This document shows positions 33,164-38,496 of a DNA stretch of 64,000 nucleotides, piece after piece. Position 1 is the first letter of the stretch. Each line of letters starts with the position of its first letter. The translations under genes and the position numbers were made by a program. The notes beneath the pieces were generated by a model. The model ran no database searches, was not told the DNA's origin, and saw nothing but the letters and a program-made list of their open reading frames with translations. This DNA comes from Allobranchiibius huperziae (lineage in GTDB: Bacteria; Actinomycetota; Actinomycetes; Actinomycetales; Dermatophilaceae), in NCBI RefSeq assembly GCF_013410455.1, contig NZ_JACCFW010000001.1, positions 1,876,929-1,940,928 of the forward strand, written 5' to 3'.

Positions 33164-33931
33164 GTGCTCCCCACCGCCCGTGCCGTCCGGTACGTCGTCC
33201 CATTGCGGGAGGGCGGGTCGCTGCCCGGTGTCGTCGAGGCCGACGACGAGGGCACCTGGGTGTTGAAGTTCCGCGGTGCCGGGCAGGGTGTGAAGGCGCT
33301 CGTCGCCGAGGTCGTCGTCGGGGAGCTCGGCCGCGCCCTCGGGATCCGGGTGCCCGAGCTGAAGGCGGTCGAACTGCCGATCCAGATCGCGCGATACGAG
33401 GCCGACGAGGAGGTGCAGGACCTGCTCAGCGCGAGCGTGGGCTTCAACCTCGGGGTCGACCTGCTGCCCGCCGCGTTCAACTACGACCCCGCGTACCCGC
33501 CGCCCGCCGACGAGGCGGCGGCGATCCTGTGGCTGGACGCGTTCACCGCGAACATCGACCGCACGCCGCACAACCCCAATCTGCTGCGCTGGCACCGCAA
33601 TACGTGGTGCATCGACCACGGTGCGGCGCTCTACTTCCACCATTCCTGGCCCTCCAGGGGCGCCGACGCCGCCCGGTTCGCCGCGCAGCCCTTCGACGCC
33701 TCGACGCACGTGCTGCGTCCGGTCGCACGCGGACTGGCGCAGACGCACGAGCGGCTCGGCGCCCAGGTCAACGAGCCCGCGTTGCGCGCGGTGCTCGACC
33801 TCGTGCCCGACGAGTGGCTCGAGCCCGCACCGGGGCTGCTCGATCCCGCGGCGGTGCGCTCGGCGTACGTCGAACACCTGCTCGCGCGGCTCGCCTCCCC
33901 CGGGCCCTGGCTGCCGCAGGACCCGTCATGA
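33164..33931 (+). CDS. HipA-family kinase-like protein
   Basis: 255-aa protein with the minimal HipA kinase fold. Lys in WVLKFRGAGQGVKALVAEVV (about residue 31) corresponds to the ATP-binding Lys; LWLDAFTANIDRTPHNPNLL holds the catalytic-loop Asp and Asn; WCIDHGAALYF resembles the metal-binding D-x-G segment. It lacks the N-terminal HipA N1 domain and no HipB-like helix-turn-helix partner is next to it. It is instead followed with an ATGA overlap by a DUF3037 protein, a pairing known in many bacteria. True HipA kinases phosphorylate aminoacyl-tRNA synthetases; the target here is unknown. GTG at 33164 is the start. Confidence 0.82.
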   Translation: MLPTARAVRYVVPLREGGSLPGVVEADDEGTWVLKFRGAGQGVKALVAEVVVGELGRALGIRVPELKAVELPIQIARYEADEEVQDLLSASVGFNLGVDLLPAAFNYDPAYPPPADEAAAILWLDAFTANIDRTPHNPNLLRWHRNTWCIDHGAALYFHHSWPSRGADAARFAAQPFDASTHVLRPVARGLAQTHERLGAQVNEPALRAVLDLVPDEWLEPAPGLLDPAAVRSAYVEHLLARLASPGPWLPQDPS

Positions 33932-34314
33932 ACGCGCTGCTGGGCTACCAGTACGTCGTACTGCGCTGCGTGCCCTCAGCCGTGCGCGAGGAGTTCCTCA
34001 ACGTCGGGGTCGTCCTCTACTGCCAGCAGGCCGGCTTCCTGCAGGTCGCCTGGTCGGTCGACGACGCGCGCTTGCTGGCGTTCGCGCCGACGCTGGACCC
34101 TGCCGAGGTGCGTGCGGCCCTGCAGACCGCCGAGGCCGCCTGCCGGGACGGCGCCGTCGAGGGCCGTCCCGACCTCGTCGGACTGGGGCCCAGGTTCGGC
34201 TGGCTCGCGGCGCCGCGCTCGACCGTGCTGCGCCCCGGTCCGGGCCACGGCGGTCTCACGACCGACCCCGCGGCCGAGCTGGCTCGCCTGCTTGCGGTAT
34301 TGGTGGAGGTATGA
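33928..34314 (+). CDS. DUF3037 protein
   Basis: 128-aa protein with the DUF3037 opening YQYVVLRCVPSAVREEFLNV followed by GVVLYCQQAGFLQ. The family is nearly always encoded beside a HipA-like kinase, but its biochemical role is unknown. The ATG overlaps the kinase stop as ATGA, and its stop overlaps the next ATG the same way, so kinase, DUF3037 and deacylase are likely made in fixed ratio. Confidence 0.85.
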   Translation: MNALLGYQYVVLRCVPSAVREEFLNVGVVLYCQQAGFLQVAWSVDDARLLAFAPTLDPAEVRAALQTAEAACRDGAVEGRPDLVGLGPRFGWLAAPRSTVLRPGPGHGGLTTDPAAELARLLAVLVEV

Positions 34315-34853
34315 CGCGCGCATTCCTGGTCTGGGGACCGGCCACCGACCACCCCGAGCTGATGGCCGACCCCACGCGACGGGCGCTGGACGACCTCGCC
34401 GACCGGGACGTCGTACACGCGTGCTCGATCGACCCCGAGATCGCCGACACCGCAACGCTCGTCGCGAAGTCCGGGTACCCGCTGCAGCAGTGCGCCAACT
34501 GCGTGGTCGTGGCCGGCAAGCGGGACGGGGTGGAGCGTGTCGCCGCCCTCGTCGTCCTGGCGCACACCCGCGCCGACGTCAACGGCGTCGTCCGCCGCAC
34601 CCTCGACGTGCGCAAGCTGTCGTTCATGTCGCAGGAGGCCGCCGTCGAGCGCACCGGCATGGAGTACGGCGGCATCACCCCCCTTGGCCTGCCGCCGGAG
34701 TGGCCCATCTACGTCGATGCCGCCGTCGCGCACACCGACCCCGTGATGATCGGATCGGGGCTGCGCCGCGGCAAGCTCGAACTGCCCGGGGCGGTCCTCG
34801 CGGCGCTTCCCGGTGCCCAGATCATCGACGGGCTGGCGCGCGTCGCGGAATGA
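34311..34853 (+). CDS. YbaK/EbsC-like aminoacyl-tRNA deacylase domain protein
   Basis: 180-aa protein. The C-terminal 140 residues match the YbaK/ProX fold: [60 protein letters not shown] and [16 protein letters not shown]. This fold hydrolyses mischarged aminoacyl-tRNA. The first ~45 residues ([20 protein letters not shown]) are an extra segment. It is the third gene of the operon with the HipA-like kinase and DUF3037, which is noteworthy because both ends of the operon touch tRNA charging. Substrate tRNA is unknown. Confidence 0.82.
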
Positions 34854-34908: not shown

Positions 34909-35343
34909 ATGCCGCTCACGGGTGAGTACGCCGAAGAGAAGACCGAGTGGGTCAGGGACCAGCTCGCCAAGATCGACGAGGCCGGCACCACCGAGGTCGT
35001 CGGGGTGCAGGGCATGGCGGTCGTCGTCTACACGGTGCGTAGCGCCAAGACCGGCAAGCTGCGCCGCGTGCCTTTGATGCGCGTCGAGCACGACGGGGTC
35101 TACGCGGCCGTCGCGTCGTACGGCGGCGCCCCGAAGCACCCCGCCTGGTACTACAACTTCGTCGCCAACCCGCAGGTCGAGGTGATGGACGGGACATCCC
35201 ACCACGACGGCGTCGCCCGCCGGATCGAAGGCGACGAGCGGGCGCAGTGGTGGGAGCGCGCGGTGGCCGCCTACCCGCCGTACGCGGAGTACCAGACCAA
35301 GACCGACCGGGAGATCCCGGTCTTCGTGGTCGAGCCCGCCTGA
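34909..35343 (+). CDS. Deazaflavin (F420)-dependent nitroreductase family protein
   Basis: 144-aa split-barrel protein of the Ddn family. Motifs: [40 protein letters not shown] (substrate and cofactor region) and NPQVEVMDG. Members use F420H2 or bind FMN/heme to reduce small molecules. ATG at 34909 follows GAGGAGA by 5-6 nt. It stands after the kinase/deacylase operon and ends before the first palindromic element. Confidence 0.9.
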
Positions 35344-35362
35344 CCCCCTCTCCAGTTTTGGA

Positions 35363-35398
35363 CATGCACAGCGGGGCAGATATGCCCCGCTGTGCATG
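35363..35398. repeat. Palindromic element, copy 1
   Basis: CATGCACAGCGGGGCA (35363-35378) is perfectly complementary to 35383-35398, with a GATA loop. The stem is 16 bp. It lies between the convergent ends of the nitroreductase (35343) and the DUF559-type gene (35400), so it can work as a bidirectional terminator. It is related to copy 2 at 36462-36507, including the TTTGGA flank on its left. Confidence 0.8.
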
Positions 35399-35399
35399 G

Positions 35400-36358
35400 T
35401 CAAGTCTCCGCAGCCTGGCGATAGGCACGGACCACCTGGCGCATGAACCGCGCCGGCTCGGTCCGCAGCCCCATCAGCGGGATGCGCAGCACCCTTTCGC
35501 GGCCCAGCACCAGGTCGTTCTGACGCAGGGCGTCATCGTTCACCGAGTCGACATCGAGATGGTGCACGCCATCGATCTCGACCAACAGTCCGACCGACTC
35601 CCACCCGGCGTCGACGTACGCCACCCCGCTCGGTCGCAGTCGCCGGATCTGCCGGTCCGGCGAGGGCAGACCGTACGCCGTGCACAGCGCGCCGAAGTCG
35701 AGCTCGCCGAGGGACTCCGCACCGTCGCAGACGTCCCGGATCACCTGGTCGAGCAGCGTTCTCCTCGCCGTGTAGGTGGTTGCCTCCCACGCTGTCCTCA
35801 GTCGATCACGATCGACGATCCGCTGTTGCACGCTCATCGACACCAGCAGGGCTGCCGTCCGATCGGTGCGCGCCCACGCGGCGGCGTGCAGGCATGCGAC
35901 CTCCGGCAGGACCCTCGGCACCGGCGAATCGACCGCTGGTCCCACAGCGTTCGGTCGATGCACGGTGATCCCGGACGACCGGCGTACCCGGTTGGCCGAC
36001 GGGACGCTGACGTGCACCGTGTCGTCCTCGAACTTCCGCAGTCCGGCCGCGGTGAGCGCTGTGACGCCGTCGAGCACGGCACCTGGACCCGACTCCCACA
36101 CCGCGCTCCACCAACGGCTCTCGCCGACCAGCTCGGCTCCGGGAGAAGCACGGTGTGCAACCCGACGAGCCGCCACCGGCCGGCGCGGATCTCCGTACGC
36201 AGATCCGCTCGGGTCACCCCTTCACGCAGCAGGTCCGCTCGATGCGCAACACCTGCGTGATGAGATGCGACGCGTGCGAACGCCCTGGCCCGCAGGTCAC
36301 GTCGACTCGGCGTACCCGCGGTGAGGAGGCCTGCACCCACCCCTTGGTCGATAGTCAC
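35400..36358 (-). pseudogene. AbiEi-like/DUF559 protein gene with a frameshift
   Basis: Two overlapping frames give one protein. The upstream frame, from a GTG near 36358, carries VAHRADLLREGVTRADLRTE and RAGRWRLVGLHTVLL, the helix-turn-helix-like N-terminus found in AbiEi-type antitoxin-domain and DUF559 proteins. The downstream frame carries SVWESGP-like then GPGAVLDGVTALTAAGL and the C-terminal VGLLVEIDGVHHLDVDSV, a VSR/DUF559 endonuclease-like fold. The switch is a -1 change close to 36140-36150. One extra C in the CCC run there would join LLP to GAELVGES in one frame. The C-terminal part can still be read from a GTG at 36176 as a 258-aa protein. It is either a decayed gene or a sequence error. 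Confidence 0.65.
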
Positions 36359-36461: not shown

Positions 36462-36507
36462 TTGGACATGCATACCGGGGCAGATGTGCCCCGGTATGCA
36501 TGTCCAA
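36462..36507. repeat. Palindromic element, copy 2
   Basis: A 21-bp perfect inverted repeat: 36462-36482 (ending in ACCGGGGCA) and 36487-36507, with a GATG loop. It lies 7 nt from the thrS stop and is its probable terminator. It shares the TTGGACATGCA arm and GGGGCA core with copy 1; the three variable stem bases differ but stay paired (CAG:CTG in copy 1, TAC:GTA here). Confidence 0.82.
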
Positions 36508-36513
36508 TTTCGG

Positions 36514-38496
36514 TCAGACCTGAGCGCGGTCCGTGATCGCCTGCTGCACCAGCTCGATCGCCTCGTCGACCGGCACGCCGTTCTTCTGCGAGCCGTCGCG
36601 GTAGCGGAACGAGACCGCACCCGCGGCCCGGTCCTCGTCGCCGGCGATCAGCGTGAAGGGCACCTTGGACTTCGAGGCGTTGCGGATCTTCTTCGGGAAA
36701 CGGTCGTCCGACGCGTCGAGCTCCGTGCGGATCCCCTTCTCCTTCAGGCGATCCAGTACGCCGCGCAGGTAGTCGTCGTACTCCGCCGCGACGGGCACGC
36801 CGAGCACCTGCACCGGTGAGAGCCACACGGGGAACGCGCCGGCGTAGTGCTCGACGAGCACGCCGAGGAAGCGCTCAATGGACCCGAACTTGGCCGAGTG
36901 GATCATCACCGGTTGCTGACGGGTGCCGTCGGCAGCCTGGTACTCCAGCCCGAAACGCTCCGGCTGGTTGAAGTCGTACTGGATCGTCGACATCTGCCAG
37001 GTGCGCCCGATGGCATCGCGCGCCTGCACCGAGATCTTCGGCCCGTAGAACGCCGCGCCGCCCGGGTCGGGCACCAGCTCCAGTCCCGACTCGGTGGCCA
37101 CCTGCTCCAGGATCGCGGTGGCCTCGTCCCACTGCTCGTCGGAGCCGATGAACTTGTCCTTCTTCTCCCCTTCGGTGTCGCGAGTGGACAGCTCCAGGTA
37201 GAAGTCGTCCAGCCCGAAGTCGCGGAAGAGTCCGAGACAGAAGTTCAGCAGGTGCTTGATCTCGGCGGGCGCCTGCTCACGGGTCACGTACGAGTGCGAG
37301 TCGTCCTGCGTCATACCCCGCACCCGGGTCAGACCGTGAACGACGCCGGACTTCTCATAGCGGTAGACCCCGCCGAATTCGAAGAGCCGCAGCGGCAGCT
37401 CGCGGTAGGACCGCCCGCGCGAGCGGTAGATCAGGTTGTGCATCGGGCAGGACATCGCCTTCAGCTGGTAGTTCGCGCCCTCCAACTCCATCGGCGGGAA
37501 CATCGTGTCCGCGTAGTACGGCAGGTGGCCGGAGGTGTGGAAGAGCCCGTCCTTGGAAATGTGCGGCGTCCCGACGTACTCGAAGCCCTCCTCGATGTGG
37601 CGACGGCGTACGTAGTCCTCCATCTCCCGCTTGATGACCCCGCCCTTGGGGTGGAAGACGGGCAGACCCGAACCCAGCTCCTCGGGGAAGGAGAAGAGGT
37701 CGAGCTCGGCGCCGAGCTTGCGGTGGTCGCGCTTCTCCGCCTCGGCGAGCCGGTCGGTGTACGCGCGCAGCTCCTCCTTACTCGGCCACGCGGTGCCGTA
37801 GATGCGCTGCAGCTGCGGGTTCTTCTCACTCCCCCGCCAGTACGCCGCCGCCGATCGCATGATCTTGTACGCGTTGCCGATCAGCTTGGTCGACGGCAGG
37901 TGCGGCCCACGGCACAGGTCGCCCCAGGCGACCGATCCGTCTCGGCGCACGTTGTCGTAGATGGTCAGCTCGCCCGCGCCGACCTCCGCCTCGGCGCCGT
38001 CGGCGGCCTCCGCCGCGCCGCCCTTGAGCCCGATCAGCTCCAGCTTGAACGGCTCGTCGGCGAGCTCCGCCCGGGCCTCGTCATCGGTGACCACGCGACG
38101 GGAGAAGGTCTGGCCCTCGTTGACGATGCGCTGCATCGCCTTCTCCAGAGCCTTCAGGTCCTCCGGGGTGAACGGGGTCTCGACGTCGAAGTCGTAGTAG
38201 AAGCCGTCGGTGATGGGCGGCCCGATGCCGAGCTTCGCGGCGGGGTTCACCTGCTGGACGGCCTGGGCCAGCACGTGCGCGGTGGAGTGCCGCAGCACGT
38301 TGAGCCCGTCGGGCGAGCCGATGTCGACCGGCTCCACCACGGCACCGTCCGGCACCTCGCGGAAGAGGTCGAGCAACTGCCCGTCGACCCGCATCGCCAC
38401 GATCCGCCGGTCCTCGCCGAACAGATCGGTGCCCGTCGTGCCCTGCTGCACCGATCGCTCGTCTCCGGCGACATGGATGCTGAGCTGGGCAGACAC
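36514..38496 (-). CDS. thrS: Threonyl-tRNA synthetase
   Basis: 660-aa class II synthetase charging tRNA-Thr. Domains in order: TGS (about 1-65, [17 protein letters not shown]), editing domain with [11 protein letters not shown], and catalytic core with zinc ligands Cys in [12 protein letters not shown], His in TQDDSHSY and His in [14 protein letters not shown]. Motif 2 is [13 protein letters not shown], motif 3 [15 protein letters not shown]. The anticodon-binding domain follows at the C-terminus ([12 protein letters not shown]). GTG at 38496 has AGGAG about 7 nt upstream. It is the head of the minus-strand cluster but separated from the HIT gene by the accessory block 33164-36358. Confidence 0.98.

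Follow-up and report, generated by a model that had tools for sequence, protein, structure and literature searches.

Within the window analysed here, a stretch of 64,000 nucleotides from the Allobranchiibius huperziae genome (assembly size 3.72 Mb), a HipA-like kinase gene, a DUF3037 gene and a YbaK-like gene form a tightly coupled operon. Its functional unit is probably the first two genes, that is, a kinase held in check by DUF3037, with a dispensable third gene in tow. This reading places a kinase-DUF3037 pair known from a few anti-phage systems in the core chromosome of many Actinomycetes, and it removes a tempting but weak story in which HipA kinases and tRNA editing were joined here with ThrRS.

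All three genes lie on the + strand. The first (33164-33931) encodes a 255-aa HipA_2 kinase (PF20613, E=2e-14), whose GTG start at 33164 aligns with the starts of its homologues; the second (33928-34314) encodes a 128-aa DUF3037 protein (PF11236, E=9e-36), likely a kinase inhibitor or antitoxin; and the third (34311-34853) encodes a 180-aa YbaK-like protein of the tRNA_edit fold (PF04073, E=2e-18). An earlier, sequence-only reading of this DNA had described three genes with four-base overlaps and had named these families. Both points were confirmed, the names by the Pfam matches and the overlaps by an ATGA stop/start at each junction (33928-33931 and 34311-34314, both +). Placing the operon "beside" thrS on the opposite strand was accurate as to the gene and its strand (36514-38496, -) but loose as to distance, because thrS starts 1.66 kb past the operon end and two genes intervene: an F420 quinone-reductase gene (34909-35343, +) and a gene for a 258-aa protein without an assigned family (35400-36176, -). 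The latter protein matched no family over its cut-off, its match to DUF4666 being weak, and its end may resemble DUF559-type proteins.

Located 5' of the kinase, on the opposite strand, are HIT-family, CDP-alcohol phosphatidyltransferase, acyltransferase and glycosyltransferase genes, and the surroundings of the operon are those of an ordinary chromosome. The nearest named locus, in Allobranchiibius sp. CTAmp26, encodes a kinase that is 94% identical. A palindromic hairpin repeat, CATGCACAGCGGGGCAGATATGCCCCGCTGTGCATG, occurs in the window at 35360-35398 and 36464-36502; the genome contains 14 copies at ≤3 mismatches, with paired stem changes, compared to 0 for a reversed-pattern control, and the predicted fold has an energy of -39 kcal/mol (z -6.6).

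A survey of family co-occurrence, proposed as a check in the earlier reading, linked the kinase and DUF3037 well beyond chance. Among 296 Actinomycetes genomes, DUF3037 was present in 135 and HipA_2 in 133; both families occurred together in 131, compared to ~61 expected if they were independent. DUF3037 was found alone in only four genomes (two of these being marginal hits), and HipA_2 alone in two (one marginal). The two genes were adjacent and on the same strand in all 108 distinct loci (two of which probably represent one genome held in two collections), with a -4 gap between them in 97, a count that depends on the start choice made here. Adjacency also held in 29 of 29 further loci from the class that were readable on both sides; one additional class locus had no kinase in the stretch, its DUF3037 gene lying at a contig end. 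Genomes of the window's family have either both genes or neither, with the pair missing altogether from four of them (G007, G016, G026 and G029). In Actinomycetes that carry the pair, one copy of it is normal. A Streptomyces globosus plasmid also carries the pair (L202:2231-3372), amid genes for a beta-ketoacyl synthase, a phosphopantetheinyl transferase, ccrA and efflux, and thus probably inside a biosynthetic cluster.

The first protein is predicted to be a minimal HipA-like Ser/Thr kinase. Its ATP-binding and catalytic residues are intact: K35, N130-x-D132, N137, D151 and the Gly-rich G17-G18-S19-x-P21-G22 are invariant across 53 kinase sequences, with R133 also listed in the invariant motif N130-x-D132-R133...N137. 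The structure model (pLDDT 93) matched the folds of H. pylori CtkA (Z 16.1, 3.0 Å, 205 residues), PI4K-II and actin-fragmin kinase. Against HipA itself the model scored Z 11.6 (3.3 Å over 177 residues) and aligned only from HipA residue ~145 on, indicating a kinase core without the HipA N-terminal subdomain. S19 maps close to where this alignment begins, in the region of HipA's autophosphorylated loop serine, and may be the equivalent of that residue. A sequence search returned no solved relatives of the kinase or of the kinase profile. Many of the large genomes of g76 encode a second HipA_2 kinase without DUF3037. In all three loci read (L203:2568-3482, L204:2275-3189 and L205:2074-2988), its gene is flanked on one side by a large gene, which encodes IucA/IucC-FhuF in L203, and on the other by malate synthase. 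Not every HipA_2 kinase, therefore, requires a DUF3037 partner.

Profiles from PADLOC identify the pair as the candidate system PDC-M66: PDC-M66A matches the kinase (E=3e-19), and PDC-M66B, a profile of 281 positions, matches the DUF3037 protein only with its positions 4-70. The partner stops at 128 aa and lacks a C-terminal DUF1829/DNA-binding-like part, an extension that the DUF3037 family model itself does not demand. Its AlphaFold2 model (pLDDT 91.7) gave a best Foldseek match of E=0.38 and a best VIA match of Z 3.3, with no HipA, HipS or HipB listed, and a sequence search for solved relatives yielded nothing credible. The idea that DUF3037 is a HipS-like, split-off N-terminal subdomain of HipA is not supported by these fold searches, although such an absence is not proof.

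The pair in Actinomycetes is mostly inherited with the chromosome and behaves like a core module. Kinase distances correlated with those of ThrRS (r=0.68; 0 of 2000 permutations as high), and the kinase tree clusters largely by genus, e.g., Terrabacter, Nocardioides and Ornithinimicrobium. The kinase-DUF3037 correlation (r=0.59) was no higher than that of either protein with ThrRS and thus gives no evidence of contact between the two. Within the genus, approximate dN/dS values (Nei-Gojobori) were 0.09-0.17 for the kinase, 0.09-0.25 for DUF3037 and 0.09-0.11 for thrS. No tblastn match to DUF3037 was found in phage records, while seven plasmid records had a match. We did not see the patchy, horizontally moving distribution typical of a mobile toxin-antitoxin module; mostly chromosomal inheritance in one copy makes a standing regulatory or defence role probable, rather than that of a mobile addiction module.

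Core-gene-like inheritance of the pair makes a regulatory function other than defence a serious alternative to the DUF3037-held, toxin-like kinase that we prefer. The kinase would then be a conserved regulator, e.g., of translation or metabolism, DUF3037 would set its activity or specificity, and HipAD defence would be a derived use on mobile elements. The near-complete pairing, the wide distribution over several families of the class, mostly as a single copy, the vertical divergence and strong purifying selection just described and the ordinary chromosomal neighbours all fit such a housekeeping function. Against these stand the distant members of the same pair that act as toxin and antitoxin, and the fact that most other families of the order, as well as some complete genomes of the family, do not have the pair, which means that it is not essential. 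We regard this alternative as possible but doubtful. Toxin-antitoxin and defence modules are nevertheless not usually inherited vertically in such a core-like manner, and this counts against our best explanation. For the window's family, the Nocardioides-type loci and several large-genome families, we would also suggest, tentatively and with a little less than even confidence, that HipA_2-DUF3037 serves as a core switch of kinase and inhibitor with vertical inheritance, the mobile anti-phage HipAD systems being derived from, or sister to, it. If so, its target and signal could be part of a pathway of general growth control.

The third position after the pair is variable, being occupied by a PEBP gene, a YbaK-like gene, both or other genes. 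The YbaK-like gene adjoins the pair in ~1/10 of homologous loci, and the 30 class-wide loci include no such case, so the conservation of a deacylase next to the kinase in other genomes, on which the earlier reading had staked its case, is largely lacking. It lies directly 3' of the pair in the window, in a near relative, in G025 and in an Ornithinimicrobium group, 2.5 kb away in G020, and beyond a single PEBP gene in Segeticoccus (L032) and Ornithinicoccus (L106); the -4 gap between DUF3037 and YbaK recurs in L007, L059, L085, L087 and L096. A congener (G001) has the kinase, DUF3037 and F420 genes, and such a YbaK is absent both at the site and elsewhere in its genome. The pair-linked YbaKs form one clade (support 95/97), yet their linkage takes six changes on the kinase tree, a combination best read as a single joining followed by repeated loss. 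Given this infrequent and repeatedly changing linkage and the congener that lacks the gene, we rejected YbaK as an obligatory third component. Commoner in the position directly after DUF3037 is a PEBP gene (PF01161, Raf-kinase-inhibitor-like), found there in 20 of 138 loci (L014, L015, L022, L025, L032, L033, L036, L039, L046, L068, L070, L075, L082, L086, L090, L093, L094, L095, L105 and L106). The two loci L032 and L106, in which a PEBP gene precedes YbaK, hint at kinase-DUF3037-PEBP-YbaK as a possible ancestral order.

The name "YbaK-like" is true of the fold family (PF04073), which the third protein shares with the YbaK/INS-superfamily Cys-tRNAPro deacylases, but not of the deacylase equivalog TIGR00011, against which it scored 34.4 bits with a cut-off of 153.25. 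In phmmer and MAFFT alignments alike, its Asn63 aligns to the INS-family lysine (YbaK K46/ProXp-ala K45), a residue reported to be strictly conserved and required for deacylation (PMC10164551). The same replacement of lysine by Asn occurs in 40 of 41 relatives of the protein, and Asn occupies this site in the actinomycete subfamily (window 34311-34853 and L115-L140) with or without the kinase pair. The protein is unlikely to be a Cys-tRNAPro deacylase of the standard type.

Proximity to thrS is similarly local. thrS lies near the pair in this genus and otherwise only in two Janibacter loci, where it is within a few kb upstream. No kinase was found within ~1.5 kb of thrS in 27 thrS loci from outside the genus, and we rejected a functional thrS linkage on this count. 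Among the same 27 loci, a HIT gene on the same strand lay within ~1.5 kb in seven and an F420 gene in four; with these neighbours near thrS in the absence of the kinase, the pair seems to have been inserted where thrS and a HIT gene were already neighbours. The YbaK-like gene and thrS near the pair are local accidents.

These results make it very improbable that the operon is a three-gene control system for tRNA charging, as the earlier reading had proposed, in which the kinase phosphorylates a tRNA synthetase (ThrRS being nearby), the YbaK-like protein clears mischarged tRNA and DUF3037 controls both. The double ATGA coupling and the linked YbaKs, a single clade kept at tight spacing in several genera, speak for such a system; the rarity of the YbaK linkage and its loss in the congener, the missing lysine throughout the YbaK subfamily, the free YbaK relatives in genomes without the pair and the genus-restricted thrS linkage (bar two Janibacter) speak against it. 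That three functionally unlinked genes merely share a promoter is more improbable still: the variable third position accords with it, and it may apply to YbaK, but for the pair it is contradicted by the adjacency of kinase and DUF3037 in all loci read and by their co-occurrence far above chance.

The two-gene module with a DUF3037-held kinase draws its proposed mechanism from distant relatives. DUF3037 is strongly associated with HipA-like kinases, and in the Retron-Sda1 operon a HipA/DUF3037 pair protects against phage Bas51; there, deletion of the kinase abolishes defence and deletion of DUF3037 is toxic (PMC12548924). DS-6 (= HipAD; Brenes and Laub 2025) has been validated as anti-phage; a catalytic mutation that inactivates the kinase DS-6A removes the protection, and DS-6A and DS-6B are predicted by AlphaFold3 to form a complex (PMC13092281). 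By analogy, the actinomycete pair may act as toxin and antitoxin, perhaps against phage. DUF3037, translated from its overlapping start, would bind the kinase and keep it inactive; phage infection or another stress would release the kinase, which would then phosphorylate a host target and stop growth. HipA and HipT bring to mind a tRNA synthetase as that target, which is no more than a guess. Regulation may be different here, since the DUF3037 protein has no counterpart to the C-terminal extension of DS-6B and of the Sda1 partner. The YbaK-like gene would be a facultative, co-transcribed addition to a pair that works without it.

The locus shares features with several known systems. With HipBA and HipBST it has in common the HipA-type kinase fold, the Gly-rich loop and the catalytic residues, but the kinase, of 255 aa, has no counterpart to HipA before residue ~145, and its partner is DUF3037 rather than an HTH protein. 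The earlier description of a toxin-antitoxin-like arrangement with a HipA-type kinase and no HipB was correct: no HTH antitoxin HipB is present beside the kinase, whose adjacent genes are the DUF3037 and HIT genes. The same description had suggested that the system could be undescribed, whereas the pair is already known as PDC-M66, as HipAD/DS-6 and as the active portion of the Retron-Sda1 operon. Retron-Sda1 shares the two families, with the kinase as toxin and DUF3037 as neutraliser; it differs in that the neighbouring genes here include no reverse transcriptase and the DUF3037 protein lacks the C-terminal part common to the Sda1 partner and type III retron DNA-binding proteins. The closest likeness is to PDC-M66/HipAD (DS-6), which also combines a HipA-like kinase of conserved catalytic site with an adjacent DUF3037 and no HipB. 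Unlike that system, the pair described here is chromosomal and mainly vertical in its inheritance, and its short partner does not have the C-terminal part of DS-6B; for this last reason, we file the locus with the kinase-DUF3037 pair family rather than with the DS-6 architecture.
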